Shown: positions 4,938 through 55,130 of the stretch, piece after piece
Position numbering within the stretch: the stretch's first letter is position 1
Layout of the letters: each line of letters opens with the position of its first letter
NCBI GenBank assembly: GCA_949293335.1
Contig: CASFDA010000005.1
Location: forward strand, 124,001-188,000
Origin: an uncultured Spirochaetales bacterium
Lineage (GTDB): Bacteria > Spirochaetota > Spirochaetia > Sphaerochaetales > Sphaerochaetaceae
DNA length: 64,000 nucleotides
Direction: 5' to 3'
Notes under the pieces: model-generated
Told to the model about the DNA's origin: nothing
Database searches by the model: none
The model's input: the letters and a program-made list of their open reading frames with translations, nothing else
Program-made: the position numbers and the translations under genes

Positions 4938-7900
4938 TTGCCTTTTCAATTGAAAGGGTGATGACCTTCTCATCCACTTTTATGTCCCTTCCACTGTTGT
5001 CAGCAAACAGCAGGCTGTCAGAAAGGGTCTCCTTTGCAATGTATGATGCATAGCTGGCCACAGCCTTCTGGATCATATCATCGCCATAGACTTCACACTT
5101 GATGTGATCTGTCACTTCAAATCCCTTTTCCTTCCTTTCCTGCTGGACTATGCGGACAATATCGCGGGCAATTCCCTCGAGAAGAAGCTCTTCCGTGATA
5201 TTGGTATCATAACCGACCGTAATAGTCCCTTCATTGAGGACCTTCACGTTCTCCCTTTCACTTCTCTGGACTACAAGATCCCCTTCTGCGATCTGGATAT
5301 CACCAGAAGAGTAGCTTACGCACATCGCATTGCCATCGAGAATCGAAGCGATCTCATCGCTTGTAAACGCTGCTATTTTTGCAGCAACTTCCTTCATGTT
5401 CTTTCCAAGCTTGGCCCCGAGAACCTTGAAGTTTGCCTTTGCCGAGTAAGTGACAAGCTCGCTTTCGTCTCCTTCGATCAGAACTGTCTTAACGTTCAGC
5501 TCCTCACGGATGATCTCCTCACTGTCCCTGAGGATCTTCCTCTCATTTTCATTCCTGTCGACAATGAAGAACTTTCCAAGCGGCTGGCGGGTCTTGATAT
5601 TCGAACTGTTTCTCAGCGCCCTGCCCATCGCGATCGCTTTCATGATAAGGTCCATCTCGCCTTCAAGCTCCATGTCCCTTCCCTTCTCATCGTATACAGG
5701 ATAGTCGCAGAGATGAACAGACTCAGGCATATCTGAAGTCTTGAGGTTCTGATAGATCTCCTCTGTCACGAATGGAATGATCGGACACGCGACTTTCATT
5801 ACTGTCAGAAGGACCCAGTAGAGAGTATTGTATGCATCCCTCTTGTCCTCATCATCTCCACTTCTCCAGAATCTCCTCCTTGATCTCCTGATGTACCAGT
5901 TGTTCAGATCATCGACAAAACGTACGATGCTCTGGCAGGCACCCTGCACATCATACGATCCGAGTGCGTCATCAACTTCTTTTATAAGCCTGTTTGTTGC
6001 GGAGACGATCCATCTGTCAAGCGGATTTGCAAGATTTGACAAATCTGCAACCTTTCCCTCATAGCCATCGATATTCGCATACGTGACGAAGAATGAATAA
6101 GCATTCCAGAGAGGAATGAGAAGGTTCTTGAGGACATCCTTGACAATGTCATCGTTGAACTTCAGGTCATCTGCTTTGACGAGACAGGAATTCACAAGCG
6201 CAAAGCGTAGGGCATCCGCGCCGTATGTGTTCACTATCTCCATCGGGTCTGTATAGTTTCTCAGACTCTTGCTCATCTTCCTTCCATCAGCAGCAAGGAC
6301 GATGCCAGATGTGATGCAGTTCAGGAATGCAGGTTTCTCAAAGAGCGCAGCAGCAAGGACCGTAAGGGAATAGAACCATCCCCTCGTCTGGTCAAGACCT
6401 TCATTGATGAAGTCAGCCGGGAAGTTGGCCTCAAACCTCTCCTTGCCTTCAAAAGGATAGTGATTCTGGCCATATGGCATGCTTCCGGACTCAAACCAAC
6501 AGTCAAGGACATCCGGAATTCTCCTCATCGTCCCCTTTCCATCCGGGCTTGGCCAAGTAAGCTTGTCCACATACTGTTTATGGAGGTCAGTGACCTTCTG
6601 TCCAGACTTCCTCTCAAGCTCCTCTACAGATCCGATTACCTCGATATAATCGGATGCATCTGATTTCCAGACAGGAATCGGATTGCCCCAGAACCTGTTT
6701 CGGGAGATTGCCCAGTCCCTTGCACCCTCAAGCCATTTTCCGAATCTTCCGTGCTTGATATGTCCAGGCACCCAAGTGATCTCCTCGTTGCACTTGAGCA
6801 TCGTCTCCTTTATCTTCGTAACATTTACGAACCAGCAGCTCATCGCCCTGTAGATCAGAGGCATGCCGGTCCTCCAGCAGAATGGATAAGAGTGGAGGTA
6901 ATTCTCCTTCTTCACCAGCTTGCCGTTCTTCTTGAGCCATTCGATGATAGGCTTGTCCGCATCCTTCACAAAGAGCCCCTTGAAATCCGGAACCTCATCT
7001 GTGAAGCAGCATGCAGAATCGATCGGGCAGACAACAGGAATTCCTGTATCTTTGAGTACATTGTAGTCATCCTCACCAAAACCAGATGCTGTATGTACGA
7101 TTCCACATCCATCTTCTGTAGTTACATAGTCACCAAGGACTACAGAGAAAGCACCAGTAGTCTTAAGCGATGCAAAATACGGGAAAAGCGGCTCATATGT
7201 CATTCCCTTGAGTTCCGTTCCCTTCATCTCGGAAATGACCTTGTACCCCTTATTGTCCTTGTAGTACTTTCCGACAAGCTTCTTCGCCAAGTAGTATCTT
7301 GAGCCGTCATCGTCGTCTTCCAGGAGTACATAGTCGATATCCGGTCCGACAGCGAGGGCGAGGTTTGACGGAAGTGTCCATGGGGTTGTCGTCCATGCAA
7401 GGAAATATGTGTTCTCCTTCTCCGCTCCATCAACCTTGAACCTTACAGTGACAGCAGGATCAACAACATCCCTGTAGCCACCGAGGTTTACTTCCATATT
7501 CGAAAGAGGGCATTCGAGCCGCGGAGAATACGGGAGGATATTGAAACCTTCGTAGATGAGACCCTTCTCATAGAGTGTCTTGAAAGCCCACCAGACAGAC
7601 TCCATGAAAGAGATATCCATTGTCTTATATCCATTCCTGAAGTCGACCCATCGGCCCATTCTGTTGATTGTGGCCTCCCATTCGTTCGTATATCTCAATA
7701 CGATCGACTTGCATTCTTCGTTGAATTTGTCGACTCCGAATTCGGTGATGGCCGCATGACCATGGATACCGAGCTTCTTTTCGATTTCATTCTCAACCGG
7801 AAGGCCATGGCAATCCCAGCCAAAACCTCTATAAACCCTGTGACCCTTCATCGTCTGATAACGAGGGATTATGTCCTTGATGGTTCCAGGAACCAGATGA

Positions 7901-8070
7901 CCGTAGTGAGGAAGACCGGTTGCAAACGGAGGACCATCGTAAATTACGTATTCGTTATCACTTGGACGTGATTCTATAGAACGGCGGAAGATATCCCTTT
8001 CCTTCCAGAAAGCCAGGACCTTCTCCTCCATCTGTGGGAAGCTGACCTTGTTGCTTACAGAATGAAACAC
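4930..8070 (-). CDS. ileS: isoleucyl-tRNA synthetase, eukaryote-like (type 2) form
   Basis: 1046 residues if started at the GTG 8070-8068, which has AGGAG 8 bases upstream. The longer open frame to 8148 would add a spurious hydrophobic leader. HYGH lies at residues 55-58 after PPFATGLP, and KMSKS near residue 597. The editing domain lies between, and a tRNA-binding C-terminal region with IleRS-specific features (CWFES, GSMPYGQNHYPF) follows. The pattern and length are those of the eukaryote-like IleRS found in spirochaetes and chlamydiae, a class generally insensitive to mupirocin. The gene is divergent from cca and heads a four-gene overlapping operon. Confidence 0.96.
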   Translation of the reverse strand: MFHSVSNKVSFPQMEEKVLAFWKERDIFRRSIESRPSDNEYVIYDGPPFATGLPHYGHLVPGTIKDIIPRYQTMKGHRVYRGFGWDCHGLPVENEIEKKLGIHGHAAITEFGVDKFNEECKSIVLRYTNEWEATINRMGRWVDFRNGYKTMDISFMESVWWAFKTLYEKGLIYEGFNILPYSPRLECPLSNMEVNLGGYRDVVDPAVTVRFKVDGAEKENTYFLAWTTTPWTLPSNLALAVGPDIDYVLLEDDDDGSRYYLAKKLVGKYYKDNKGYKVISEMKGTELKGMTYEPLFPYFASLKTTGAFSVVLGDYVTTEDGCGIVHTASGFGEDDYNVLKDTGIPVVCPIDSACCFTDEVPDFKGLFVKDADKPIIEWLKKNGKLVKKENYLHSYPFCWRTGMPLIYRAMSCWFVNVTKIKETMLKCNEEITWVPGHIKHGRFGKWLEGARDWAISRNRFWGNPIPVWKSDASDYIEVIGSVEELERKSGQKVTDLHKQYVDKLTWPSPDGKGTMRRIPDVLDCWFESGSMPYGQNHYPFEGKERFEANFPADFINEGLDQTRGWFYSLTVLAAALFEKPAFLNCITSGIVLAADGRKMSKSLRNYTDPMEIVNTYGADALRFALVNSCLVKADDLKFNDDIVKDVLKNLLIPLWNAYSFFVTYANIDGYEGKVADLSNLANPLDRWIVSATNRLIKEVDDALGSYDVQGACQSIVRFVDDLNNWYIRRSRRRFWRSGDDEDKRDAYNTLYWVLLTVMKVACPIIPFVTEEIYQNLKTSDMPESVHLCDYPVYDEKGRDMELEGEMDLIMKAIAMGRALRNSSNIKTRQPLGKFFIVDRNENERKILRDSEEIIREELNVKTVLIEGDESELVTYSAKANFKVLGAKLGKNMKEVAAKIAAFTSDEIASILDGNAMCVSYSSGDIQIAEGDLVVQRSERENVKVLNEGTITVGYDTNITEELLLEGIARDIVRIVQQERKEKGFEVTDHIKCEVYGDDMIQKAVASYASYIAKETLSDSLLFADNSGRDIKVDEKVITLSIEKANA

Positions 8071-8098
8071 TTTATTTCTCCTAAATATTCTCTGAAGA

Positions 8099-8127
8099 AT
8101 GATATATAAAAAGGAACAGGCGGACAA
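8099..8127 (-). promoter_or_regulatory. sigma-70 promoter of the ileS operon
   Basis: On the minus strand TTGTCC (8122-8127) and TATCAT (8099-8104) are separated by 17 bases. The predicted leader of about 20 bases carries the AGGAG ribosome site before the GTG start. Confidence 0.6.
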
Positions 8128-8158
8128 GATAAGGAGAGTTCTAAACACATCGCCTTTC

Positions 8159-8167
8159 TGATAATAT
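8159..8167 (+). promoter_or_regulatory. extended -10 promoter of cca, leaderless start
   Basis: TGATAATAT forms an extended -10 (TGn + TAATAT at 8162-8167). Exactly 7 bases separate the hexamer from the cca ATG, so transcription should begin at or next to the start codon. There is no Shine-Dalgarno in front of cca. Confidence 0.65.
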
Positions 8168-8174
8168 TTTCTCC

Positions 8175-9539
8175 ATGAGATTCCCGTTTGACCAAGATGT
8201 TAAGAAAATCGGCGAAATATTCAGGGAAAATGGCTTCTCACTCTACCTTGTAGGAGGTGCGGTGAGAGATTTCCTGCTGAAAAGCAAGATACATGACCTC
8301 GATTTCGCAACTGATGCGAAAACAGATGATGTAAAGAGGATGTTCAGACATACGATAGACACCGGCATCAAGCATGGAACTGTAACAATTCTATTCAGGA
8401 AAAAAGGATATGAAGTAACTACGTTCAGGATCGACGGGAAATACAACGACAACAGGCATCCAGAGAGCGTTGAGTTCGTCTCTTCACTTGAAGAGGATCT
8501 CAAGAGAAGGGATTTTACGATCAATGCACTTGCAGCATCCGTTCCGGATGGAAAGATAATAGATCTCGTAGGCGGAAAAAAAGATCTCAAGAGAAAAATC
8601 ATCAGGGCGATAGGAAAAGCCGAAGAACGGTTTTCTGAGGATGCACTGAGGATAATGAGGGCAGCACGTTTTTCCTCAAAGCTGGCATTCGACATAGACG
8701 GAGAGACTTTCTCTGCCATGAAAAGGCTAGCTCAGAACATAACGAGCGTGAGCAAAGAGCGGGTAAAGGAAGAATTCTATGCACTGATTGCCGGGAAAGA
8801 TCCTGTAAAAGGTCTTGAGGCGATGAGGGAAAGCGGCCTTCTGGCCATTCTCTTCCCTGAGCTTAAAGAGACAATAGGAGTGTATCAGGGAGGGGTGCAC
8901 AAATACGATGTGTACACGCATCTTCTACTTACACTTTCATATGCGGTGAAGAATGAACATCCGTTTGAAGTGCGCATGGCGGCCCTTTTCCACGATGTGG
9001 GCAAACCGGAAACAAGAAGGGAAGACACAAAAGGAGAAAGAGAGTACACATTCTATTCTCATGACAAAGTGAGCGCCGCTATCTTCTCCCAGATCGCAAG
9101 AAGACTGAAGACAAGCAACGAGGAACGTGAAAAGGTCGCGCACTTGATCGAGAACCATATGTTCTCATATGACAGTTCATGGACAGACAGTGCAGTGAGG
9201 CGCTTTTTGAAGCGTGTAGGAAAAGAGAACCTCAATGACCTCATCGACCTCAGAATCGATGATGAAGACGCGATCACCGGCGGAAGGGGCGACAGAAGCA
9301 ATCTCCTTGCCCTGATCGAAAGAATCAATGAGGAAGAGGAGAAAGGGCTTGCAATCACGCTGAAGGATCTGGCGATAAATGGAAACGACCTGAAAAATGA
9401 GGATATAGTGCCTTGCGGGCCAGAGATGGGAAGAATCCTTTCCCTCCTCCTTGACGAGGTGATCGAAATGCCATCCCTCAACAGGAGGGAATATCTCATC
9501 AGGAGGGCAAAGGAACTAGCTTCTCGCGATTCCCAATGA
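8175..9539 (+). CDS. cca: CCA tRNA nucleotidyltransferase / poly(A) polymerase family protein with HD domain
   Basis: 454 residues. The nucleotidyltransferase head has GGAVRD (27-32) and the metal-binding DLDFAT (41-46), followed by the class II neck/body. An HD phosphohydrolase domain lies near residue 272 (FHDVGKPE). It adds or repairs the CCA end of tRNAs, which this genome needs because its tRNA-Gln gene does not encode CCA. The first ATG gives the family-typical short lead before GGAVRD. The mRNA appears leaderless. The gene overlaps the convergent rnc gene by 24 bases at the 3' end. A pure poly(A) polymerase role cannot be excluded. Confidence 0.92.
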   Translation: MRFPFDQDVKKIGEIFRENGFSLYLVGGAVRDFLLKSKIHDLDFATDAKTDDVKRMFRHTIDTGIKHGTVTILFRKKGYEVTTFRIDGKYNDNRHPESVEFVSSLEEDLKRRDFTINALAASVPDGKIIDLVGGKKDLKRKIIRAIGKAEERFSEDALRIMRAARFSSKLAFDIDGETFSAMKRLAQNITSVSKERVKEEFYALIAGKDPVKGLEAMRESGLLAILFPELKETIGVYQGGVHKYDVYTHLLLTLSYAVKNEHPFEVRMAALFHDVGKPETRREDTKGEREYTFYSHDKVSAAIFSQIARRLKTSNEEREKVAHLIENHMFSYDSSWTDSAVRRFLKRVGKENLNDLIDLRIDDEDAITGGRGDRSNLLALIERINEEEEKGLAITLKDLAINGNDLKNEDIVPCGPEMGRILSLLLDEVIEMPSLNRREYLIRRAKELASRDSQ

Positions 9540-10792: not shown

Positions 10793-11272
10793 CTACTCTT
10801 CTCTTATTATATCACAAAGAGTGAAAGGAATGGCCTTTTCCAGTTCAGCAAGTGAAATTTCAAGCTGAAGTCCTTTCTTTCCCCCGCTTACGTGAATAAA
10901 ATCATACAGGATAGCGCTCTCATCAATGACAGTTGTAAAGAACTTCTTCATGCCGACAGGTGAGCAGCCACCGTGAACATATCCCGTAAGGGGAAGCAGT
11001 CTCTTCTCAGGAATCATATGAACGCTCTTCTCCCCGACTGCAGAGGCTGCCTTCTTCAGGTCAAGCGTTGATGATACGGGAACCAGAAACACATAATTAT
11101 CCCCGCTCTGCTCAGAAAAAGTCACAAGCGTCTTGAATACACTCGATGGATCCTCATTCAGGATCGCGGCCACAGACGCTCCATCCGTGACATCCTTGTC
11201 ATATGTCCTAACAGCATAATGGGCACCCTTCTGATCAAGGATGCGCATAGCGTTTGTCTTGTCTTCAGCCAA
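10793..11272 (-). CDS. ybaK: YbaK/EbsC family Cys-tRNA(Pro) deacylase
   Basis: 159 residues of the YbaK/ProX editing fold: KTNAMRIL near the start, the core lysine in FKTLV, and the C-terminal GGCSPVGMKK loop. It hydrolyses cysteine mischarged on tRNA-Pro. The start is probably the TTG 11272-11270, because it keeps the family-conserved KTNAMR segment. An ATG at 11248 is the alternative. The TTG start overlaps the stop of the HEPN gene by 8 bases, so this housekeeping editing gene is translated from the AAA15-HEPN transcript. Confidence 0.9.
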   Translation of the reverse strand: MAEDKTNAMRILDQKGAHYAVRTYDKDVTDGASVAAILNEDPSSVFKTLVTFSEQSGDNYVFLVPVSSTLDLKKAASAVGEKSVHMIPEKRLLPLTGYVHGGCSPVGMKKFFTTVIDESAILYDFIHVSGGKKGLQLEISLAELEKAIPFTLCDIIREE

Positions 11273-11927
11273 GGCCTTTGCTCCTCACAGAAGAATCTAC
11301 CAAAGCTCCCATCTCTTTCACAAGAGAGATGAAGAACCTCACTTCACCCGATGTGATCCTTGTCTTTTCCTCGCTTCCGCGTACAGCATCGTTCTGATGC
11401 GCGATAGCATTGCGCCTCCTGTTCAGATTCCTGAGCCCAGAATCGAGCTCTTTCGAGATGTTTATATCAAGCCCCACAAGTTGCAGTTTTCCCTTTATCT
11501 GATCGGCATAAGTGAGGGTAACGCGCCTGAACTCGTCATCCACGCTATCTATGAATGTTTCACTATCCTCCCTTCCTTTCTTGTAATCGAATACGATCCG
11601 GAATGGCACCTGATAATTCAGAAAAGAATTCGTCATCTTCCATTTGCCGACAAATACCTGCTTCATGCCGAATCGGATGGCCTCATGCATGAAATTATCG
11701 AGCGTGGATGTCAGGAAAAGCACCTGACTTCGTCTTATGTAGTCGGCGGCGTCCTTATCTCTCTGCTTTTCAAGGCCATCGATTATGTAGAATTTCTCGT
11801 CTATCTCCTCAAGATCCTTCAAGAATGATTTATACATCATCTCGTAGTAACGACTGTCTTCAGGATAATTCTTTTTTCTTCCACCTTCCTTTCTCGAAGA
11901 AGGACCTCTTGATACATCAAAACCCAT
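11265..11927 (-). CDS. HEPN-family putative RNase (MAE_28990/RiboL-PSP-HEPN-like)
   Basis: 220 residues from the ATG at 11927; an in-frame GTG at 11930 is the alternative. After a basic leader the protein is all-helical. It carries an R-X4-H motif, Arg172 to His177 (RNAIAH), the catalytic signature of HEPN ribonucleases, preceded by a helix (SQVLFLTSTLDNFMHEAI) like that of the MAE_28990/RiboL-PSP group. The start codon overlaps the stop of the AAA15 gene (TGATG) and GGAGG lies just upstream, so expression is tightly coupled to the ATPase. HEPN proteins next to AAA ATPases are typically toxin or abortive-infection effectors; this role is inferred. The exact HEPN subfamily is uncertain. Confidence 0.7.
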   Translation of the reverse strand: MGFDVSRGPSSRKEGGRKKNYPEDSRYYEMMYKSFLKDLEEIDEKFYIIDGLEKQRDKDAADYIRRSQVLFLTSTLDNFMHEAIRFGMKQVFVGKWKMTNSFLNYQVPFRIVFDYKKGREDSETFIDSVDDEFRRVTLTYADQIKGKLQLVGLDINISKELDSGLRNLNRRRNAIAHQNDAVRGSEEKTRITSGEVRFFISLVKEMGALVDSSVRSKGLG

Positions 11928-12925
11928 CACAGATCCTCCTCGAAAATTCCTTTGACAACTGGTCTGGCCCCATATAGCCCCTCGATGTATTCCTTCCGGA
12001 AATCCATCCCGTCCTTAGTGTCATCAAATTCAGAAAGGGAATATAGTTCCGTATATCGTTCGGGGCCCAAAAGGCGCGTGAACCAGATCTCATCCTTCTT
12101 AACGTCAGGAAGGGAGAGAAGATCGATATCGTGCGTGGCGAGAATCAGCTGCGCGCCTTCAGATTTTGAAGCAAATTCCTTTACTATCTGTGCAACTATT
12201 ATGTGATGGAGATGACTCTCAAGTTCATCTGAAACCACACATTTGCCCTCCTTTATGGCATCAAGCAGAGCCACAAGATAGGCAAAAAGCCGTCTTACTC
12301 CATAAGCCTCATCAGAAAGAGGCACCCTGAAATTCCCATAGTCAAAATAGACATCATCATCCTCGACATCAATATTCTCGATCGTGAAGCCCAGGTTCTT
12401 GAATGCCTTGACAATCTTTTTTCTCCTATCCGGATGTTCACTCATGACGTGTTTTGAATAGCTTATCCAATCACCTTCGGAGGAAAGGACCACGAGGTCA
12501 TCAGTAAAGAATGACAGGAGGTCCTGCGATGAAGGACTGTTCCCTGCAGGAATAAGCAATACATCTTTATTCTCGTAAGATGCGACCAGTTCATACTTTC
12601 CATCCTTCTTTGCATACAGCTCCTCTTTCTCATATTTTTCTTTCTGGTAGACGACCAGATAGCCATACTCATTGCCGTTTTTCGAAAAATAGACAAGATA
12701 AGATATTCTTCCTCCGGAAAGGCGGTGTGGCTCGTAACGTACATTTTTTTCGCCCTTCACCCGTTCTTTCAGATCCTGAAAAGATGAGAGTATGCTTGAC
12801 TTGCCACTTCCGTTTGCCCCGTATATCAAGGCTAGAGGAAGAGTATTCCCGTCCTCTTTCATCATTGAGAGCGAGACTTCATTGAGTATTGACCTGAACC
12901 CTTTGATCCTGAATTCCAAAAGCAT
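11927..12925 (-). CDS. AAA15/RloA-like ATPase (SMC/ABC-type), partner of the HEPN protein
   Basis: 332 residues from the ATG 12925, which has GGAGG 6 bases upstream; the longer frame to 13078 lacks any support. Walker A GANGSGKS lies at 36-43, a signature-like SDEAYGVRRL at 204-213, Walker B ending SDELES at 232-237, and the switch histidine in THD (264-266). The C-terminal EGLYGARPV matches the G-x-YGA-x-P motif of AAA15/RloA proteins. Such ATPases act as sensor or regulator subunits in abortive-infection modules such as AbiL and in OLD-like systems. Here it precedes a HEPN RNase with a 1-base overlap. Confidence 0.85.
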   Translation of the reverse strand: MLLEFRIKGFRSILNEVSLSMMKEDGNTLPLALIYGANGSGKSSILSSFQDLKERVKGEKNVRYEPHRLSGGRISYLVYFSKNGNEYGYLVVYQKEKYEKEELYAKKDGKYELVASYENKDVLLIPAGNSPSSQDLLSFFTDDLVVLSSEGDWISYSKHVMSEHPDRRKKIVKAFKNLGFTIENIDVEDDDVYFDYGNFRVPLSDEAYGVRRLFAYLVALLDAIKEGKCVVSDELESHLHHIIVAQIVKEFASKSEGAQLILATHDIDLLSLPDVKKDEIWFTRLLGPERYTELYSLSEFDDTKDGMDFRKEYIEGLYGARPVVKGIFEEDL

Positions 12926-12981
12926 CCCAGACCTCCACCATAATGATAGCATACGGGTGGAAGAAGGGCTGGAAAAAGGCT

Positions 12982-12987
12982 TATTAT
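12982..12987 (+). promoter_or_regulatory. candidate -10 of yidD (leaderless GTG start)
   Basis: TATTAT ends 7 bases before the GTG start of yidD. No good -35 or Shine-Dalgarno is present, so this is weaker than the other leaderless sites in the window. Confidence 0.35.
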
Positions 12988-12994
12988 CGTAAAA

Positions 12995-13282
12995 GTGAAG
13001 ATCTCTGATGTATTCAAGAACATATTCCTGATCCCTGTTTACATCTATAAAGGACTCATCAGTCCATATTTCGGCCATTCATGCCGCTATATTCCATCCT
13101 GTTCCACCTATTTTGTCTCGGCAGTGAAAAAACATGGGATAGTAAAAGGGGCAATCCTTGGGGTGGCGCGCATACTGCGTTGCTCACCTTTCTATCTTGG
13201 CGGGCCGGATGACGTCCCTGACAAATTCAGTTTCAGGTGGATAAAAGAGGATTTCGTGAGATTCCATAAACCAAGAAAGTAG
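12995..13282 (+). CDS. yidD: membrane protein insertion efficiency factor YidD
   Basis: 95 residues of the YidD family: an amphipathic N-terminus (IYKGLISPYFG), then CRYIPSCSTY, a GxxxGxxRILRC helix and a GGxD-VP tail. YidD helps YidC insert inner-membrane proteins. Yidc is not nearby. The start is a GTG (12995) with no convincing ribosome site. The gene is convergent with tetR1, its stop lying 1 base from that gene's stop. Confidence 0.9.
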   Translation: MKISDVFKNIFLIPVYIYKGLISPYFGHSCRYIPSCSTYFVSAVKKHGIVKGAILGVARILRCSPFYLGGPDDVPDKFSFRWIKEDFVRFHKPRK

Positions 13283-47572: not shown

Positions 47573-49048
47573 TCAACTCCTAATAATAGACAATCCCCTC
47601 TTCAGCCTCTTTTCTGTCTCATCAAGTCCCAGGAGGGAGATCGAATCGAAAAGAGGAAGGGATACAGTAGAATTCGTTATTGCAACACGAAGGGGCTGGA
47701 ACACCCCATTCACTTTTACGCCAAGCTCCTCAGAAAGGGAGAAAAGCTTATCCTCTATCTCCTTCTCTACAACACCTGCCTTAAGAGAGGAGATGAGCAG
47801 ATCTCCTCCCTTCTCCAACGCAGTTATGGTCTTCTCGAGATCAGAGCCCTTGGCGACATATGTCGCTTTGTCCTCGACAGGCTGATCGCGGAAGATGAAG
47901 GATGAAAGCGGAACTATATCAGAAAGGACCTTCATCCTCTCTTTCGATGCATGGGCAAGACGCAGCAGTTTCTCCTTCTCCTCACCGTTCATGTCAGGAG
48001 AGATGAACCCCTCCTTCTCGAGATATGGGGAAATAAGTGCGGCAATCTCTTCATCGCTCTTTTCCCTGATATAGTAGCCATTGAACCAATCGAGCTTTTT
48101 GTAGTCAAAGACAGCAGGAGCCTTATGGATGTTTTCCAGACGGAAACACTTTTCAAGATCTTCTTTGGAGAAGAACTCTGTAGAACCATCCAGGGACCAG
48201 CCAACGAGGGTAACATAGTTGATGATCGCTTCCGGAAGATATCCTTTCTCCCTGAAATCCCTCAGCGATGTCGAGCCATGACGCTTCGAAAGTTTCTGTC
48301 CGTCCTTTCCCATCACCATCGGAAGATGGCAATAAATCGGGACTTCCCATCCAAATGCCTCATAAAGCAGCACGTGGAGAGGGCCTGAGGGAATCCATTC
48401 CTGGGCACGCATTATGTGTGTGATTCCCATCATATGGTCATCAATGACGTTTGCAAGATGATAAGTGGGGAATCCATCAGATTTCAGTAGTATCGGATCA
48501 GGGGAGATGTCCCTGTTCCTGCGTGTGATATCCCCCATGAGGACATCGTGGAAAGTAGTCTTTCCCTCTGTGGGGACCCTGAGTCTTATTACAGGCTTTA
48601 TCCCCTGCTTCTCATACTCAAGCCTCTCTTCCTCAGTAAGGTTTGCACAGTGCCTGTCATAACCCTGATACTCGCTCTTATTCTTTATCTGCTCTTCCCT
48701 GACTTTCTCAAGCCTTTCCTGAGAGCAGTAGCAGTAATATGCCTTGCCCTTCTTCACAAGCTCTTCTGCATAGTGCCTGTAGATATCACTTCGTTCCGAC
48801 TGGATATACGGGCCATACGGACCTCCGACAACAGGACCTTCATCCCACTTTATACCAAGCCAGGAAAGGGTGTCATAAAGATCCTGGAGGGACTCATCGG
48901 AGTACCTTTCCCTGTCTGTATCCTCTACGCGGAGGATGAACTTTCCCCCGGATGACTTTGCGAAGAAATAGTTGAAAAGCGCTGTCCTGACACCCCCGAT
49001 ATGCTGAAGCCCTGTCGGGGAAGGAGCGTAGCGAACGCGAACTGACAT
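47573..49048 (-). CDS. gltX: glutamyl-tRNA synthetase
   Basis: 491 residues: class I HIGH-type PSPTGLQHIGG at the start, KLSKRHG in place of KMSKS, and the helical anticodon-binding C-terminus. It charges tRNA-Glu and, in a genome using transamidation, may also mischarge tRNA-Gln. AGGAG lies 7 bases before the ATG. First gene of the gltX - glyS - tyrS operon. Confidence 0.96.
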   Translation of the reverse strand: MSVRVRYAPSPTGLQHIGGVRTALFNYFFAKSSGGKFILRVEDTDRERYSDESLQDLYDTLSWLGIKWDEGPVVGGPYGPYIQSERSDIYRHYAEELVKKGKAYYCYCSQERLEKVREEQIKNKSEYQGYDRHCANLTEEERLEYEKQGIKPVIRLRVPTEGKTTFHDVLMGDITRRNRDISPDPILLKSDGFPTYHLANVIDDHMMGITHIMRAQEWIPSGPLHVLLYEAFGWEVPIYCHLPMVMGKDGQKLSKRHGSTSLRDFREKGYLPEAIINYVTLVGWSLDGSTEFFSKEDLEKCFRLENIHKAPAVFDYKKLDWFNGYYIREKSDEEIAALISPYLEKEGFISPDMNGEEKEKLLRLAHASKERMKVLSDIVPLSSFIFRDQPVEDKATYVAKGSDLEKTITALEKGGDLLISSLKAGVVEKEIEDKLFSLSEELGVKVNGVFQPLRVAITNSTVSLPLFDSISLLGLDETEKRLKRGLSIIRS

Positions 49049-49183: not shown

Positions 49184-50020
49184 CTATTGCTCATTTCCGG
49201 AAAGAGAGAAAGAGAGCATTTTCTCCTTCAGTTCTTCCTCAACGTCCTCGCTGATATCATACATTGGCTCGTGCGTTCCACCTTCAAGAACGAAAAATTC
49301 CTTGTTTTCAAGCATTGAGAAATCTTCCTCTATGTTATCGGAAGGGGCAACAGGATCGACTGGACTGTAGAAGACAGCACATCTGCACTTGACATCACTC
49401 ATCCGCAGCTTAGCCATTTTCTTGAGTATCTCAAATGACAGGAAATTCCTTGCCTGGAAGTATGACCAGTACTCATTTCCAAGAGCCTCATCGTCTTTCG
49501 GCGCCCCAGGATAGTGGAGGCGGAAACGTTTATCACTATGCCATGGAATCTTCTTCTCATAGCCATCCGTCGAGAGCGAGACAAGCTCATCTATGCCGAG
49601 GCCTGATGATGTGGAAAATGGAGGAGCGATCAGGATAAGTGACCTTGGGGAAAACTTTGCAGCCAGGATCAGCGAGATGAAGACACCCATTGAATGGCCC
49701 AGAAGGATAACGTTCCCATAATTCTCCATTATGTCCTTGTAGGCAGCCATGGAATAGTCGAGCCAGTCTGCCCAATCGGATCTTCTGAAGTCTTCTCTCG
49801 TTGTTCCCATTCCCGGAAGTCTCGGCACAAATACAGAGAAACCCTCCTTGGAATAAAGTTCAGCAAGGCTTTGCATCTCTCCGGGATAACCTCCGTAACC
49901 ATGTATCATGAGGACAGCTTTATCTGACCTCTCATTGATCAGGAATATGCCTTTTGCGGCATCTTTCTCATCTCCTTTGTCGGCGTACACACCTTCACGC
50001 CATTTTGCAATATCTACCAT
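49184..50020 (-). CDS. alpha/beta hydrolase (carboxylesterase/lysophospholipase-like)
   Basis: 278 residues: HGYGGYPGEM oxyanion region, nucleophile elbow GHSMG (Ser110), acidic residue in SPVDPV and catalytic His in GGTHEP, a complete triad. It is like short-chain carboxylesterases or monoacylglycerol lipases (Hydrolase_4). No signal peptide, so cytoplasmic. The start overlaps the membrane LuxR gene by 7 bases; it is the last gene of the PHP - AAA15 - RloB - LuxR - hydrolase unit. Substrate unknown. Confidence 0.88.
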   Translation of the reverse strand: MVDIAKWREGVYADKGDEKDAAKGIFLINERSDKAVLMIHGYGGYPGEMQSLAELYSKEGFSVFVPRLPGMGTTREDFRRSDWADWLDYSMAAYKDIMENYGNVILLGHSMGVFISLILAAKFSPRSLILIAPPFSTSSGLGIDELVSLSTDGYEKKIPWHSDKRFRLHYPGAPKDDEALGNEYWSYFQARNFLSFEILKKMAKLRMSDVKCRCAVFYSPVDPVAPSDNIEEDFSMLENKEFFVLEGGTHEPMYDISEDVEEELKEKMLSFSLSGNEQ

Positions 50021-50916
50021 GATGCCTCCGAAAGCAGGTTCAGGAGGTCTATCCTGCAGCTTACACCTGTTTTCCCGAATATATTCGCGATGTGATTGTT
50101 CACAGTGTTCACGCTTATTCCAAGCTCACTCGCAATCGCCTTGTTAGTCAGACCTTTCTTTATGAGGTTGATGATCTCCATCTCACGATCTGTGATATGG
50201 TAATCCGCATATACATTCTTCTTTTCTGTCATGGTCTCCTCACTGCTCTTCTTGTCACGCTTTGTCTCCCTGTAATTGGCGGCAAACAGGAATACGAGCA
50301 GCGTTATGAAGTAACTCAGGGCCACAACCTGCAAGAGGACGCTCCTCACGAAAGGAAACATTAGGGAAGCAGCCATGAAAGGGAGGACAGAAAGGGATAC
50401 TATCATCAATGTAAGCGATACTGTCCTGATCGTCCGGTCCTTTATCCTGAAGAAGGAAAAGCCCATGACCACAGCTATGTATAGGATGAGTATCATCATT
50501 TCCAAAAAAGCAATGGCTGTTAGGATATCCAGAGAGAAGACCAAATTCAAAATTCCCATCGCAAGGAACAATAGTCCCATCAGGATAAAGAGCATCTTCT
50601 CCAAGCTGGACATAGGACGTGCCACGACGAAGTTCACGAATATTGGAGAAAATACGAATAGAAATGCCCCTGTAAGCATGAACAGTCCCATCCAGATACT
50701 CTCGATTATATAAGATACGGTTCCTTGGAAGAAAAGACTCTGGAAAGATGCAAGGGCATATGAAAACACAAGGCCAAGGACAGAGGATGCGAAGATCACA
50801 AGAGCCCTAGACCATTTGTAACAAGCCCTCTCGCTCCAGACAATTGCAAGGGCAAGGTCCATGGAGGAGAGGGATATTGTGAAAAGACTCAAAAGGAAGC
50901 CAGCTTCCTTCATCAC
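50014..50916 (-). CDS. membrane-anchored LuxR family regulator (multi-helix sensor plus HTH)
   Basis: 300 residues. Seven predicted membrane helices fill residues about 5-215. A short charged linker follows, then a LuxR/GerE helix-turn-helix at about 236-295 (ITDREMEIINLIKKGLTNKAIASELGISVNTVNNHI is the textbook pattern). This looks like a one-component membrane sensor that controls transcription. It overlaps the RloB stop by 4 bases (ATGA) and the hydrolase start by 7. A LuxR membrane sensor inside a RloAB-type module is unusual. Confidence 0.85.
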   Translation of the reverse strand: MMKEAGFLLSLFTISLSSMDLALAIVWSERACYKWSRALVIFASSVLGLVFSYALASFQSLFFQGTVSYIIESIWMGLFMLTGAFLFVFSPIFVNFVVARPMSSLEKMLFILMGLLFLAMGILNLVFSLDILTAIAFLEMMILILYIAVVMGFSFFRIKDRTIRTVSLTLMIVSLSVLPFMAASLMFPFVRSVLLQVVALSYFITLLVFLFAANYRETKRDKKSSEETMTEKKNVYADYHITDREMEIINLIKKGLTNKAIASELGISVNTVNNHIANIFGKTGVSCRIDLLNLLSEASW

Positions 50917-51548
50917 TTGAAGACCTTCTGGTTGTGGGACATATCTGCCTTTCCACAGATTTCAGTCAGGTCATCATCAAACTGTGGCATTGTAGTCACA
51001 TCAGCACCAAGGCGGAACTTCTCAGATTCGTTCATCTTACGGGCAGCAAGGTCTGCGAATGCATGGCGAGGGAAGAGCATCAGGTGAAGGTTCAATCCCT
51101 TTGTCAGCAAGTACTCCTCACTCATCTCGAATCCAGAAATCGCTTTCCTCACCATCTCCCTTATGCGCTCCGGGTCGCTTTCATAACTCATATTCGCATT
51201 CACGTGCAATGCAAACCAGAGCTCGAAGCATGGATTGAAGTAACATAGGTGCACCTTCTTCCTCAGCGCATAATCGTTCTGCATCTCAAGCACTTCATCG
51301 ACAGATGTATTCACCTCATCAAACCCAAAGAGCGCCCAGACCTTCTGATAACGGCCATTGAGACGGCGCTGTGCGGCCTTGTCGACCAGTTCCTTGAGGT
51401 TCTTCACACCGCCCGAATACATGACAGTGAGGTTCATGTACCTGCAATCCTTCCTCATCTGGGAAAAGTAGATTGCCTCCGCTCTGGTTGCAGTTACAAG
51501 AAGGATCGTTCCCTTCGCTTCAGTTATATTCTTCTTACGATTAGGCAT
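50913..51548 (-). CDS. RloB-like protein (AbiLii family)
   Basis: 211 residues. The N-terminal ILLVTATRAEAIYFSQMRK, the core KVWALFGFDEVNT (usual form VFxVxDxDxx) and CYFNPCFELWFALHV (usual SNPxFExWLLLH) are RloB-family marks; the fold is predicted to be TOPRIM-like. It pairs with the AAA15 ATPase upstream (8-base overlap), the AbiLi/AbiLii arrangement reported for abortive phage infection. The acidic residues of the D-E-V loop could bind metal. Role in defence is inferred. Confidence 0.8.
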   Translation of the reverse strand: MPNRKKNITEAKGTILLVTATRAEAIYFSQMRKDCRYMNLTVMYSGGVKNLKELVDKAAQRRLNGRYQKVWALFGFDEVNTSVDEVLEMQNDYALRKKVHLCYFNPCFELWFALHVNANMSYESDPERIREMVRKAISGFEMSEEYLLTKGLNLHLMLFPRHAFADLAARKMNESEKFRLGADVTTMPQFDDDLTEICGKADMSHNQKVFK

Positions 51549-52824
51549 TGTCTCCCTCCTTTACCTCCTCCGCTTTCACAGGCGTACCGTCGTGGACGAA
51601 ATAGAAGTCACTGGTCATCGGGAGTGCGCCAAACGCGCCCTGCAGATATCTTGTGTAGTTAGATATCCTGCTCCTGCCCTTGAAATCTGACAGCGAGAAA
51701 TAAACGGTACTCGACTCGCTGTCTTTCTGCGCAAACCAGACGGCATCCTTTCTGAGCAGGCCGTCACGGAGAAGCGATGGATTACAGTCAACAACGAGAA
51801 GCTGGCTCTGCTTGTTACAGCTCTCGAAGATCTCAACAATATGGCATAGCACATCTGGATGCAATAGCTGCCCGAAGTCATCTATCACCAGCACTTTCTC
51901 TGATACGAAACTCTCGAAGAAAGCAATTCCGATAGCCACCAGACGCCTCAGGGACAGAGACTCAGAAAGGAATGTATTCGAGTAGCCGTCGACCTTCTTG
52001 TCGTTCACGTAAACATGTGTGAATACCACCTGACTTGTGCCATCATCCTTCTTTCTTACTCCAACACGTCTTATATCTGTGATATCGAGTGCCCAAAGGT
52101 AGTTGACCAGCATATCCCCCCAGCCAGGATGCCTTGAAAGGCTTTCTGCGACGAACTGCTCTGTCTGACTGCCTACACCCATAGGAAGGATGGAAAGGGT
52201 ATCCGTGAACCACGAATAAAGCTCCGAGGAAGTCTCTCCGCCGCTTTCTGCACTAGCCTGAAGGAATGTCCTTGTTTCCGGAAGATTCTTTGCAGCCCTC
52301 TTCTTGTCCCCTCTGTAGAGTTTTCCGAATCTGTAGTCATAGCCACCGCTCTCCTCGTTGGCCATTCGTTCAAACATTACCTTGCGCGAGCTGTTGACAG
52401 TATAGTAGAGACTCTCCTCAAATACCTTGTCCCTGCTCGCCTTGAGCGTATATGTTGCAACAACAGTCGGATCTTCAGGATCTCCTACTGTTCCCTTCTT
52501 CAAAATCACCTGAATCGAAATCGTAGCAGGAGTCGCTTTGTCGATTCCATAGGCAAATACAGTACCTGAAAGGGCCGAAAGAAGAGGATTCTCAACATCT
52601 TTTCCCGATGTTACTATTCTCTTCAATACTTCAAGGGCCCTCGTAAAAGAACTCTTGCCCGCCCCGTTAGGGCCGATGATTGCACTTGTCTTGATCAGAT
52701 TGAGTTTTGCATTGACAGATACGACCTTGTCCGGGTCAAGGTGATTGTCTTTCACTGCCTCAAAGCTGATCGTCTGGCTAGACTTCACGGACTTGAAGTT
52801 CGCGATTGTCATGCTTAAGAGCAT
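51541..52824 (-). CDS. RloA-like AAA15 ATPase (AbiLi family) with variant Walker B
   Basis: 427 residues. Walker A GPNGAGKS (51-58), signature region SESLSLRRLVAIG (about 287-299) and C-terminal GAFGALP of the AAA15 group. Walker B reads VLVIDDFGQLLHPD: Asp316 stands where Glu is the catalytic base, and the switch segment reads VVDCNPSLL without the usual His. ATP binding is thus likely, but hydrolysis may be slow. AGGAGG lies 6 bases before the ATG. Partner of RloB, which starts 8 bases before its stop. Confidence 0.85.
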   Translation of the reverse strand: MLLSMTIANFKSVKSSQTISFEAVKDNHLDPDKVVSVNAKLNLIKTSAIIGPNGAGKSSFTRALEVLKRIVTSGKDVENPLLSALSGTVFAYGIDKATPATISIQVILKKGTVGDPEDPTVVATYTLKASRDKVFEESLYYTVNSSRKVMFERMANEESGGYDYRFGKLYRGDKKRAAKNLPETRTFLQASAESGGETSSELYSWFTDTLSILPMGVGSQTEQFVAESLSRHPGWGDMLVNYLWALDITDIRRVGVRKKDDGTSQVVFTHVYVNDKKVDGYSNTFLSESLSLRRLVAIGIAFFESFVSEKVLVIDDFGQLLHPDVLCHIVEIFESCNKQSQLLVVDCNPSLLRDGLLRKDAVWFAQKDSESSTVYFSLSDFKGRSRISNYTRYLQGAFGALPMTSDFYFVHDGTPVKAEEVKEGDNA

Positions 52825-52836
52825 CGCTTTCCTCCT

Positions 52837-53472
52837 CTATGTATTCGTAAAGAGGGCTTCCATCCTCTTCTTGACATACGGGTATCTATCGATTGCGTCC
52901 CTCATCATCTCAATATCATCCGCATTGCCGTAGCAATCTGATGAGATGATATCAACAACGCCATCTTCCAACATTTTCCTGGCCCTGGCGCTGGTGAGGG
53001 CAGATCTGCCACTCACCTCGAACAAGCCGCCAAGATTCCTGACTGTTTCAAGCATTTCCCCTTTCAGCCACATGAGACGGTCTGCGTGAGAAACGACAAA
53101 ACCTCTGAAAGAGCATAGCCTGAGATTCTCAGGAAGATTTATGGGCATGAATGACGATGGAAAGTCCAACAGAGCGTAGTTGCCGGGAAGTAGAGGAAAA
53201 TCTTCTCTCACGCCTTCATCCGAGAAATAGACGTCGGAAGCGAGATCGATCTTCATCGACATAGAGAGGGACAATTCAGCTGCTTTTTGATACGAACTCA
53301 TGATGCGTGCAACTTTCGTTCCGGAAGGCCTTTTCTTCAGATGTGGAGTAAGGACTATGTGCAAGATACCCATAGCCTTGTAACACTCCAGCAGGACCTT
53401 GAATAGATTCCAGTCCATAAGGGATTCATCTATGCCCGGAAGAATGTGAGCATGCAAGTCAATCAAACCCAT
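52837..53472 (-). CDS. CpsB/CapC-type PHP-domain tyrosine phosphatase
   Basis: 211 residues: DLHAHILPGIDES (metal-binding HxH), TPHLKKRP, and C-terminal IISSDCYGN (Asp and the usual His position Cys/Tyr). This is the PHP phosphotyrosine phosphatase family linked to capsule control. The usual SDAH-type end motif is altered to SDCY. First gene of the five-gene unit, 12 bases before the AAA15 gene. No ribosome site; TATACT lies 7 bases before the ATG. Confidence 0.8.
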   Translation of the reverse strand: MGLIDLHAHILPGIDESLMDWNLFKVLLECYKAMGILHIVLTPHLKKRPSGTKVARIMSSYQKAAELSLSMSMKIDLASDVYFSDEGVREDFPLLPGNYALLDFPSSFMPINLPENLRLCSFRGFVVSHADRLMWLKGEMLETVRNLGGLFEVSGRSALTSARARKMLEDGVVDIISSDCYGNADDIEMMRDAIDRYPYVKKRMEALFTNT

Positions 53473-53479
53473 GAGTAAA

Positions 53480-53485
53480 AGTATA
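53480..53485 (-). promoter_or_regulatory. -10 hexamer of the PHP-AAA15-RloB operon, leaderless
   Basis: TATACT on the minus strand, 7 bases before the PHP phosphatase start codon. The -35 is weak. The 207-base gap 53473-53679 contains no gene. Confidence 0.55.
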
Positions 53486-53643: not shown

Positions 53644-53681
53644 AAAAATTTTATATAAATACCTGATTTTTGTAAGGTATT
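53644..53681 (-). terminator. possible terminator at the end of the lipoprotein gene
   Basis: On the minus strand AATACCT and AGGTATT pair around a 10-base loop starting at the stop codon, followed after TATATAAAA by TTTTTT. The gap before the T run makes it weak. Confidence 0.4.
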
Positions 53682-54786
53682 ATGTCTCCATCAAGAGCAT
53701 ATCGAGAACAGAATTCTCCACCCCCACATCGTCACTACCTGTCCCTTCTATCTGTCTGAGTGCTTCCTCGTTGCTCCTCCTTATAGAAAGGAGTGTCGAA
53801 TAAAGGACATTTGCTTCCCTGCTCTCTGGATGGAATTCAATCACGTCCTCGATGATCGTTATCGCGCTGTCTATATCTCCGAGGGCTGCAGAAAGAAGGC
53901 TCGCATTGTACCCGGACGGAAGATGTGCAGAAGACTGGAATTCGAGGAGGAATATGTTCCTCGCATCCTGATAGAGCTCATCCTTCACCATATCATAGGC
54001 AATCTCGATCCTCTCTGCCTTAGGCTTGTTCGACATCAGTGAGATATCTCTGTATGTAAGGGTCGGAACAAGTTTATGGACAATCTCCCACTGGAAGTCA
54101 GAGATCATATCCGTGAAATCTGTATAAGGATCATCTGTATAAAGGAAAGACCCGATCAGCATCGACTGGTGGCTCTCGTCAGGAAAACGCATAGCTCCGA
54201 TGAGACGCTCAGTCTTAGCGTCGATAACATAAACTGAGAATACAAGGTATGAATCCCTCACATAGTGGTAATCGACATCACGCACCACCCTAGGCTCCCC
54301 ACGATCGTTGAAAACACTCCTTGAGGCACTTTCCGACATGATGTACTCATCGACAGACATAGACTCAATCTGCGGGACAATGATCGCATCTACCCCATAC
54401 GATTCAAAGAGCTCTGTCCTGTTCTTGCTTCTCATGATCAGCTCTGTCTGCATAGGGAGCATGATGGATGTGAAGTAACCTGTCCTATCTAGTGTCCTCA
54501 GGATAGTGTCCGTCGCATATGACGCGACTTTAGAAGAGAGGCTCTGGTCATAAGTTGATGGAACATAGCCGTGATCGAGGCTCGAGAGCCTGTCGCGGGC
54601 AGGAACATAACGGCCAGGAGCTGCAAAGTACCTGTATGGAATTGTGTTTGTGACAGCGATATTCCTATGCCTGCCCATATCGATCTCGCTCGGGACCCGA
54701 TAGCGCACGCGCAGTGTGGTCGCGCAAGATGTCAGAAATAACAGCAACACCGCCAAGATTACGACAAGATACTTTGCTTTCCTCAT
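53680..54786 (-). CDS. predicted lipoprotein with GNA1162/DUF6340-like region and a short tetratricopeptide-like tail
   Basis: 368 residues from the ATG 54786, giving a signal ending in lipobox LFLTSC (Cys21). The middle (IAVTNTIPYRYF, ... VDAIIVPQIESMSVDEY) resembles surface lipoproteins of the DUF6340 kind. The last 90 residues (ASLLSAALGDIDSAITIIEDVIEFHP ...) look like one or two TPR units. It starts 2 bases after the rsfS stop. Function unknown; likely inner or outer membrane anchored. Confidence 0.72.
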   Translation of the reverse strand: MRKAKYLVVILAVLLLFLTSCATTLRVRYRVPSEIDMGRHRNIAVTNTIPYRYFAAPGRYVPARDRLSSLDHGYVPSTYDQSLSSKVASYATDTILRTLDRTGYFTSIMLPMQTELIMRSKNRTELFESYGVDAIIVPQIESMSVDEYIMSESASRSVFNDRGEPRVVRDVDYHYVRDSYLVFSVYVIDAKTERLIGAMRFPDESHQSMLIGSFLYTDDPYTDFTDMISDFQWEIVHKLVPTLTYRDISLMSNKPKAERIEIAYDMVKDELYQDARNIFLLEFQSSAHLPSGYNASLLSAALGDIDSAITIIEDVIEFHPESREANVLYSTLLSIRRSNEEALRQIEGTGSDDVGVENSVLDMLLMET

Positions 54787-54788
54787 AT

Positions 54789-55130
54789 TCAGAGAGTCTC
54801 CACCTTCTTCCATAACTTCTCGAGGTTGTAAAAAGACCTCATCTCGCTGCTCATCAGATGAACTACGATGTCTCCGAGATCAATCAGTTCCCATCCGTCA
54901 TCCCCAGGGCTTTTATGCCTGTTGGATGCACTGAGTCCAAGCTCGTTGAAAAGACCCCAGATCTGATGCACGACACCTTTGAGATGGCCGACCGATGTGA
55001 CCGTACCTATGACAAAGCAGTCTGTCCAGGAGCACTCTGGAGAAAGATCCAGTATCTCGACATCGAGGCATCTGTGTTCCTCGAGGTATTCCTTTATCCT
55101 CTCGGCATTCTTCTTAACTTCTTCCTTCAT
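54789..55130 (-). CDS. rsfS: ribosomal silencing factor RsfS
   Basis: 113 residues from the ATG 55130 (AAAGGAAG upstream). DVEILDLSPECSWTDCFVIGT and GDIVVHLMSSEMRSFYNLEKLW are the RsfS/Iojap marks. It binds L14 and stops subunit joining in starvation. It overlaps the upstream lipoprotein stop by 4 bases (ATGA). Part of the obgE - nadD - yqeK - rsfS linkage common in bacteria. Confidence 0.94.
   Translation of the reverse strand: MKEEVKKNAERIKEYLEEHRCLDVEILDLSPECSWTDCFVIGTVTSVGHLKGVVHQIWGLFNELGLSASNRHKSPGDDGWELIDLGDIVVHLMSSEMRSFYNLEKLWKKVETL

Follow-up and report, generated by a model that had tools for sequence, protein, structure and literature searches.

A core RloA/RloB-like gene pair with degenerate active sites, linked to a membrane LuxR-type regulator in a family of spirochaetes

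RloAB pairs elsewhere form an anti-phage suicide system. In the family of the uncultured Spirochaetales bacterium studied here, such a pair is a core locus whose two proteins have both lost residues of their active sites. The explanation we favour, at a probability of about one half, is that the RloAB pair has been exapted and no longer cuts DNA, forming an ATP-binding regulatory complex with a neighbouring LuxR-type protein, perhaps linked to the cell envelope. An earlier note on this DNA had taken the locus for an abortive-infection system that uses a TOPRIM effector; this defence reading is unsupported, because the distribution of the locus is core, its inheritance vertical, and the active-site residues of both AbiL proteins are lost. 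Tools annotating the operon as phage defence are probably wrong.

Within the analysed stretch of 64,000 nucleotides (hereafter the window), the open reading frames bear out the five genes and the tight packing described in the earlier note, as an overlapping cluster on the minus strand. Its parts and immediate context are:

53480..53485, minus strand: -10-like box TATACT, directly before the PHP gene (upstream motif scan)
52837..53472, minus strand: PHP / CpsB-CapC-type phosphatase with altered metal ligands, ASDVY, SHADR and SDCY (CpsB_CapC profile, 55.8 bits)
51541..52824, minus strand: AbiLi/RloA-like ABC ATPase, 427 aa (Pfam AAA_21, 47 bits; PADLOC AbiLi, 194.5 bits; residue tallies)
50913..51548, minus strand: RloB/AbiLii-like protein, 211 aa (Pfam RloB, 55.1 bits; PADLOC AbiLii, 40.4 bits; alignments; AF2 model, pLDDT 91)
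50014..50916, minus strand: seven-helix membrane LuxR-type regulator with a C-terminal GerE HTH (Pfam PF00196, 53.5 bits against a cut-off of 23.5; AlphaFold2)
49184..50020, minus strand: alpha/beta hydrolase with a GHSMG nucleophile motif and a conserved C-terminal His (Abhydrolase_6, 57.6 bits)
47573..49048, minus strand: gltX, the conserved downstream neighbour, given as context and outside the claimed system (synteny)

A gap of 12 bases separates PHP from the ATPase, and the genes that follow overlap by 8 bases (ATPase/RloB), 4 bases (RloB/LuxR) and 7 bases (LuxR/hydrolase), where the overlap of 4 presumes a GTG start for LuxR and would shrink to 1 base, as in several relatives, if the ATG at the next codon were used. 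Near-identical packing is seen again in relatives, in support of a single tightly packed unit. In 32 of 33 genus loci the first gene has a -10-like box a short distance upstream, compared with 19% of shuffles. Both observations make the layout seem more than chance. Upstream of the operon loci no consistent shared operator dyad or LuxR operator was found, and an Rfam scan of the window returned tRNA only. The next gene upstream of the operon, a putative lipoprotein (53680-54813, minus strand), is conserved in most genus and family loci; it is fast-evolving and has no Pfam match above cut-off.

RloB is present in all 36 genomes of the genus. In a class-wide profile search, where a score gap divides core copies of AbiLi (at least 146 bits) from accessory ones (107 bits or less), the core form was found in 35 of 35 genus genomes, in 52 of the 57 genomes of the family's other genera and, beyond the family, only in the sister families f3 (G037, G085) and f4 (G038, G065). 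The five family genomes that lack it are small (1.2-1.7 Mb), and one of them is just 80% complete; the ATPase profile matches nothing in four of the five, and in the fifth (G293) it has a weak match of accessory type. The AbiLi-like ATPase and RloB genes mostly adjoin gltX-glyS, the order AbiLi-RloB-LuxR-hydrolase upstream of gltX-glyS-tyrS being kept throughout the genus and, with PHP ahead, in most of the family. LuxR and the hydrolase are, then, conserved neighbours of the pair on that scale, as the earlier note had suspected, and LuxR adjoins the pair already in f3. An f3 locus (L124) has a DUF6051 protein (7792-9090, 252.6 bits) after LuxR, where the family has the hydrolase, and in f3 a small HTH gene lies on the opposite strand between LuxR and gltX (L066 2846-3181, with an HTH_3 match, and L124 9095-9454, identified by reading alone). 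We considered and set aside a tRNA-related role, for which adjacency to gltX was the sole argument and which meets, in f4, a locus (L136) where no gltX was found.

Evolutionary distances track those of gltX, with Spearman coefficients of 0.78 for AbiLi and 0.81 for RloB against random maxima of 0.28 and 0.22, and the core copies fall into clades distinct from those of the accessory ones (support 1.0 and 0.96). Judged by these sequences, AbiLi and RloB are inherited vertically. No relative was found among viral contigs; of two scans of genome contigs, one was empty and the other gave a single named member of the family, along with two matches that were weak and unrelated. Purifying selection on AbiLi and RloB is strong. 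Between near pairs, dN/dS is about 0.009-0.025 for AbiLi, as low as for gltX and glyS, 0.006-0.076 for RloB and 0.02-0.18 for LuxR; it is 0.09-0.15, where dS is unsaturated, for the hydrolase, which evolves faster than the other three conserved genes.

PHP was examined as a fixed fifth member of the operon and rejected as such, since it follows the BY-kinase. Scoring PHP at the locus only and the kinase genome-wide, a tally by hand gave 43 family genomes with both, 3 with PHP only, 5 with the kinase only and 29 with neither (Fisher p 2e-13, uncorrected for relatedness). The window genome, which has no BY-kinase, belongs to the three with PHP only, and its PHP matches the CpsB_CapC profile yet has changed metal-ligand motifs (GSE to ASD, AHxER to SHADR, SDxH to SDCY), unique among 51 PHP. 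On the simplest reading, PHP acts for the kinase and is now decaying in the window genome after kinase loss. In f3 and f4, AbiLi-RloB comes after three genes: one resembling mannose-1-phosphate guanylyltransferase (seen at three of the four loci), one for a Wzc-like tyrosine autokinase (which exceeds the TIGR01007 cut-off at the three loci tested) and one for a CpsB-type phosphatase. This context makes the ancestral setting look like exopolysaccharide control. The fourth kinase, upstream of PHP in L124 (G085), carries several stops or frameshifts, possibly from an assembly error.

The loss of active-site residues is seen in both proteins of the pair. In the window ATPase, Walker A (GPNGAGKS) is intact, Walker B reads IDD (E to D at residue 316), the signature reads ESLSLRR (G to S at residue 291) and the H-loop VDCN (H to C at residue 347). 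All intact core AbiLi have the change of Walker B DE to DD and are without the H-loop His, and the signature Gly is Ser throughout the family but still Gly in f3 and f4, which suggests the order in which residues were lost. OLD-family TOPRIM nucleases bind metal A through a Glu and a DxD pair, and metal B through further acids (PMC6755086). By the correspondence inferred from alignment onto OLD numbering, the metal-A Glu is replaced in the window RloB (A20), and so is the first Asp of DxD (G75), the protein reading VTATRAE against V.EG.TE elsewhere and FGFD against FDxD elsewhere; among core RloB the former is lost in 86 of 86 and the latter in 83 of 86. All 18 control AbiLi retain signature Gly, Walker B DE and H-loop His; 13 of these are accessory copies found in the class, of which seven come from genomes which also have the core pair, and five are plasmid or phage copies. 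Their RloB partners retain EG..TE and FDxD, or have them with small insertions or Ser for Thr, the L149 sequence being truncated at the glutamate and one plasmid having no RloB listed beside its AbiLi. These residue tallies strongly suggest that the core pair has lost catalytic activity, i.e., cutting and, probably, also the ATP-burning chemistry.

It is conceivable, if rather unlikely, that the pair is still enzymatic with an altered chemistry, RloB cutting or nicking by means of its metal-B acids and AbiLi hydrolysing ATP through Asp instead of Glu. The window genus does keep the putative metal-B acids (E24 in 36/36, E/D109 in 35/36), and Bp OLD mutants without one metal site still nick, single metal-ligand mutants being unimpaired and the triple metal-A mutant still nicking DNA (PMC6755086), while OLD ATPases naturally vary in these motifs and tolerate such variation (PMC7049728). 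However, the family's other genera have lost the second of these acids in 44 of 46 cases, and sometimes the first, which means that the conserved role cannot be that of a nuclease; in P2 OLD, moreover, each active-site mutation tested abolished lethality (PMC7049728).

Lost catalysis with an intact fold would also suit a dominant-negative partner, and accessory copies that appear active by their motifs reside in several genomes alongside the core pair, as might be expected of a dead pair that serves as decoy or immunity factor against active RloAB toxins of phages, plasmids or those same accessory copies. We hold this to be improbable, given that the core and accessory proteins are distant and fall into separate clades, and that the core pair is near universal whereas the accessory copies are patchy; a decoy alone would, in addition, leave the linkage to LuxR unexplained.

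As to this LuxR, it is the genome's only strong GerE match (56.8 bits, with the next at 26.2), and its AlphaFold2 model shows seven long helices ahead of the HTH. Foldseek gave no match at E < 0.001 for it or for RloB, and PDB sequence searches with RloB and the ATPase gave nothing useful. For the membrane part of LuxR, seven-helix receptors rank weakly (E ~0.01, TM ~0.4), and that part was taken to be a generic bundle. Rate covariation, measured as partial correlation of distances with gltX and glyS factored out, is highest for AbiLi-RloB (0.70) and AbiLi-LuxR (0.64); it is 0.49 for LuxR-hydrolase and 0.26 for AbiLi-hydrolase, with values of 0.14-0.47 for pairs involving the neighbouring lipoprotein as control. 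Since the lipoprotein-AbiLi control itself reaches 0.47, the covariation of AbiLi and LuxR is suggestive only: the regulator may co-evolve with AbiLi, and the hydrolase weakly. In part this agrees with the single functional system proposed in the earlier note: the rates of AbiLi, RloB and LuxR covary beyond the tRNA-synthetase control. PHP separates from it.

The weak coupling of AbiLi to the hydrolase would agree with two units of unrelated core genes, AbiLi-RloB and LuxR-hydrolase, which have nothing but operon history in common. So would the three genomes of one genus (L138-L140, confirmed by reading in L138) where AbiLi-RloB stands alone directly before gltX, and the several genera in which no hydrolase was found (it is missing from L104, L105, L134 and L135); LuxR, too, was not found in a few genera. 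The earlier note had held that RloAB alone in relatives would speak against a joint system, which is the situation in L138-L140, though most loci keep LuxR/hydrolase. A mere shared location nevertheless seems to us a poor explanation for a gene order kept over most of the family, for the adjacency of LuxR already in f3 and for the AbiLi-LuxR correlation.

A functional AbiL-type abortive infection, with LuxR as sensor and the hydrolase damaging the membrane, is very unlikely. It is suggested by the tight packing and by the matches to the PADLOC AbiLi and AbiLii profiles, a check that the earlier note had proposed, but it does not fit a core and vertical distribution, the loss of catalytic residues that persist in accessory copies of the same genomes, or the existence of minimal forms without LuxR and hydrolase. 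Lastly, a neutrally decaying remnant of an earlier defence system, to which the lost catalytic residues might point, can practically be dismissed, as the low dN/dS of AbiLi shows that the pair is not decaying and the replacement motifs are invariant over the family.

The exapted regulatory complex could have come about and might work as follows. An RloA/RloB (AbiL-type) defence pair would have been exapted before the family diverged from f3 and f4, its sister families, in an ancestral setting of exopolysaccharide (envelope) control, and would have shed the TOPRIM metal-A residues and key residues for ATP hydrolysis while retaining the ATP-binding motif, to persist in the core genome as a regulatory complex that is passed on vertically. 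The AbiLi head may dimerise upon ATP, with poor or no hydrolysis, and hold as a scaffold an RloB that no longer cuts; the seven-helix LuxR would sense a membrane signal and set transcription, perhaps of its own operon, and the hydrolase could be a side enzyme acting on a small ester or lipid. More tentatively, and with the odds rather against it, the pair might be a domesticated abortive-infection system turned into a signalling complex, near-essential, non-catalytic and gated by ATP, with control over LuxR and the envelope state family-wide; the signature Gly would then have been lost later than the TOPRIM acids, the Walker B Glu and the H-loop His. Bacterial immune genes would seem, in either case, to become core cell machinery. 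Relatives with intact catalytic sites occur in the same genomes and are natural controls, which makes the path from toxin to scaffold testable residue by residue. There is also a practical side, in that defence catalogues built on profiles can count a locus as AbiL throughout a family even though it is core and catalytically degenerate.

Elsewhere in the window, at 11265-13078 on the minus strand, there is a second AbiLi-like AAA_21 ATPase (383 aa; PADLOC AbiLi, 203 bits), with DE and TH motifs that are intact by eye. It overlaps a HEPN/RiboL-PSP gene (PF18735, 39.8 bits) by 4 bases, and this separate ATPase-HEPN pair looks like a candidate defence or toxin-antitoxin system.

In the literature collection searched on RloB, AbiL and defence in this group, a core or degenerate RloAB operon is not described. 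The locus resembles AbiL (AbiLi/AbiLii) and RloA/RloB pairs, and the NetFlax AAA D29:TOPRIM_OLD D44 pairs (PMC10440598), in its adjacent, often overlapping genes for AAA_21 and RloB proteins and in its PADLOC AbiLi/AbiLii matches, and differs from them in being core and vertical rather than accessory or mobile, in its lost TOPRIM and hydrolysis residues and in the addition of LuxR and hydrolase. With PARIS AriA/AriB and the OLD-family nucleases the locus shares the broad architecture of an ABC ATPase with a TOPRIM partner (here the putative one, RloB), but the metal-A residues are absent here and the RloB model scores middling against OLD/AriB chains (VIA; Z 7.2 for 6nk8 and 5.1 for 8ux9), tied with unrelated Rossmann-like folds. 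The likeness to CpsB/BY-kinase exopolysaccharide loci lies in f3 and f4, where the pair comes directly after a Wzc-like BY-kinase and a CpsB-type phosphatase, whereas in the window's family the kinase is not adjacent, being elsewhere in the genome or, as in the window genome, absent. Finally, Cran1 is an archaeal OLD-family ATPase with a role in the cell cycle, and apparently not antiviral (PMC12796447). It combines an active nickase and an ATPase in one chain, as opposed to the two genes with degenerate sites found here, but it offers a precedent for a member of the OLD family whose role is cellular and not antiviral (PMC12796447).
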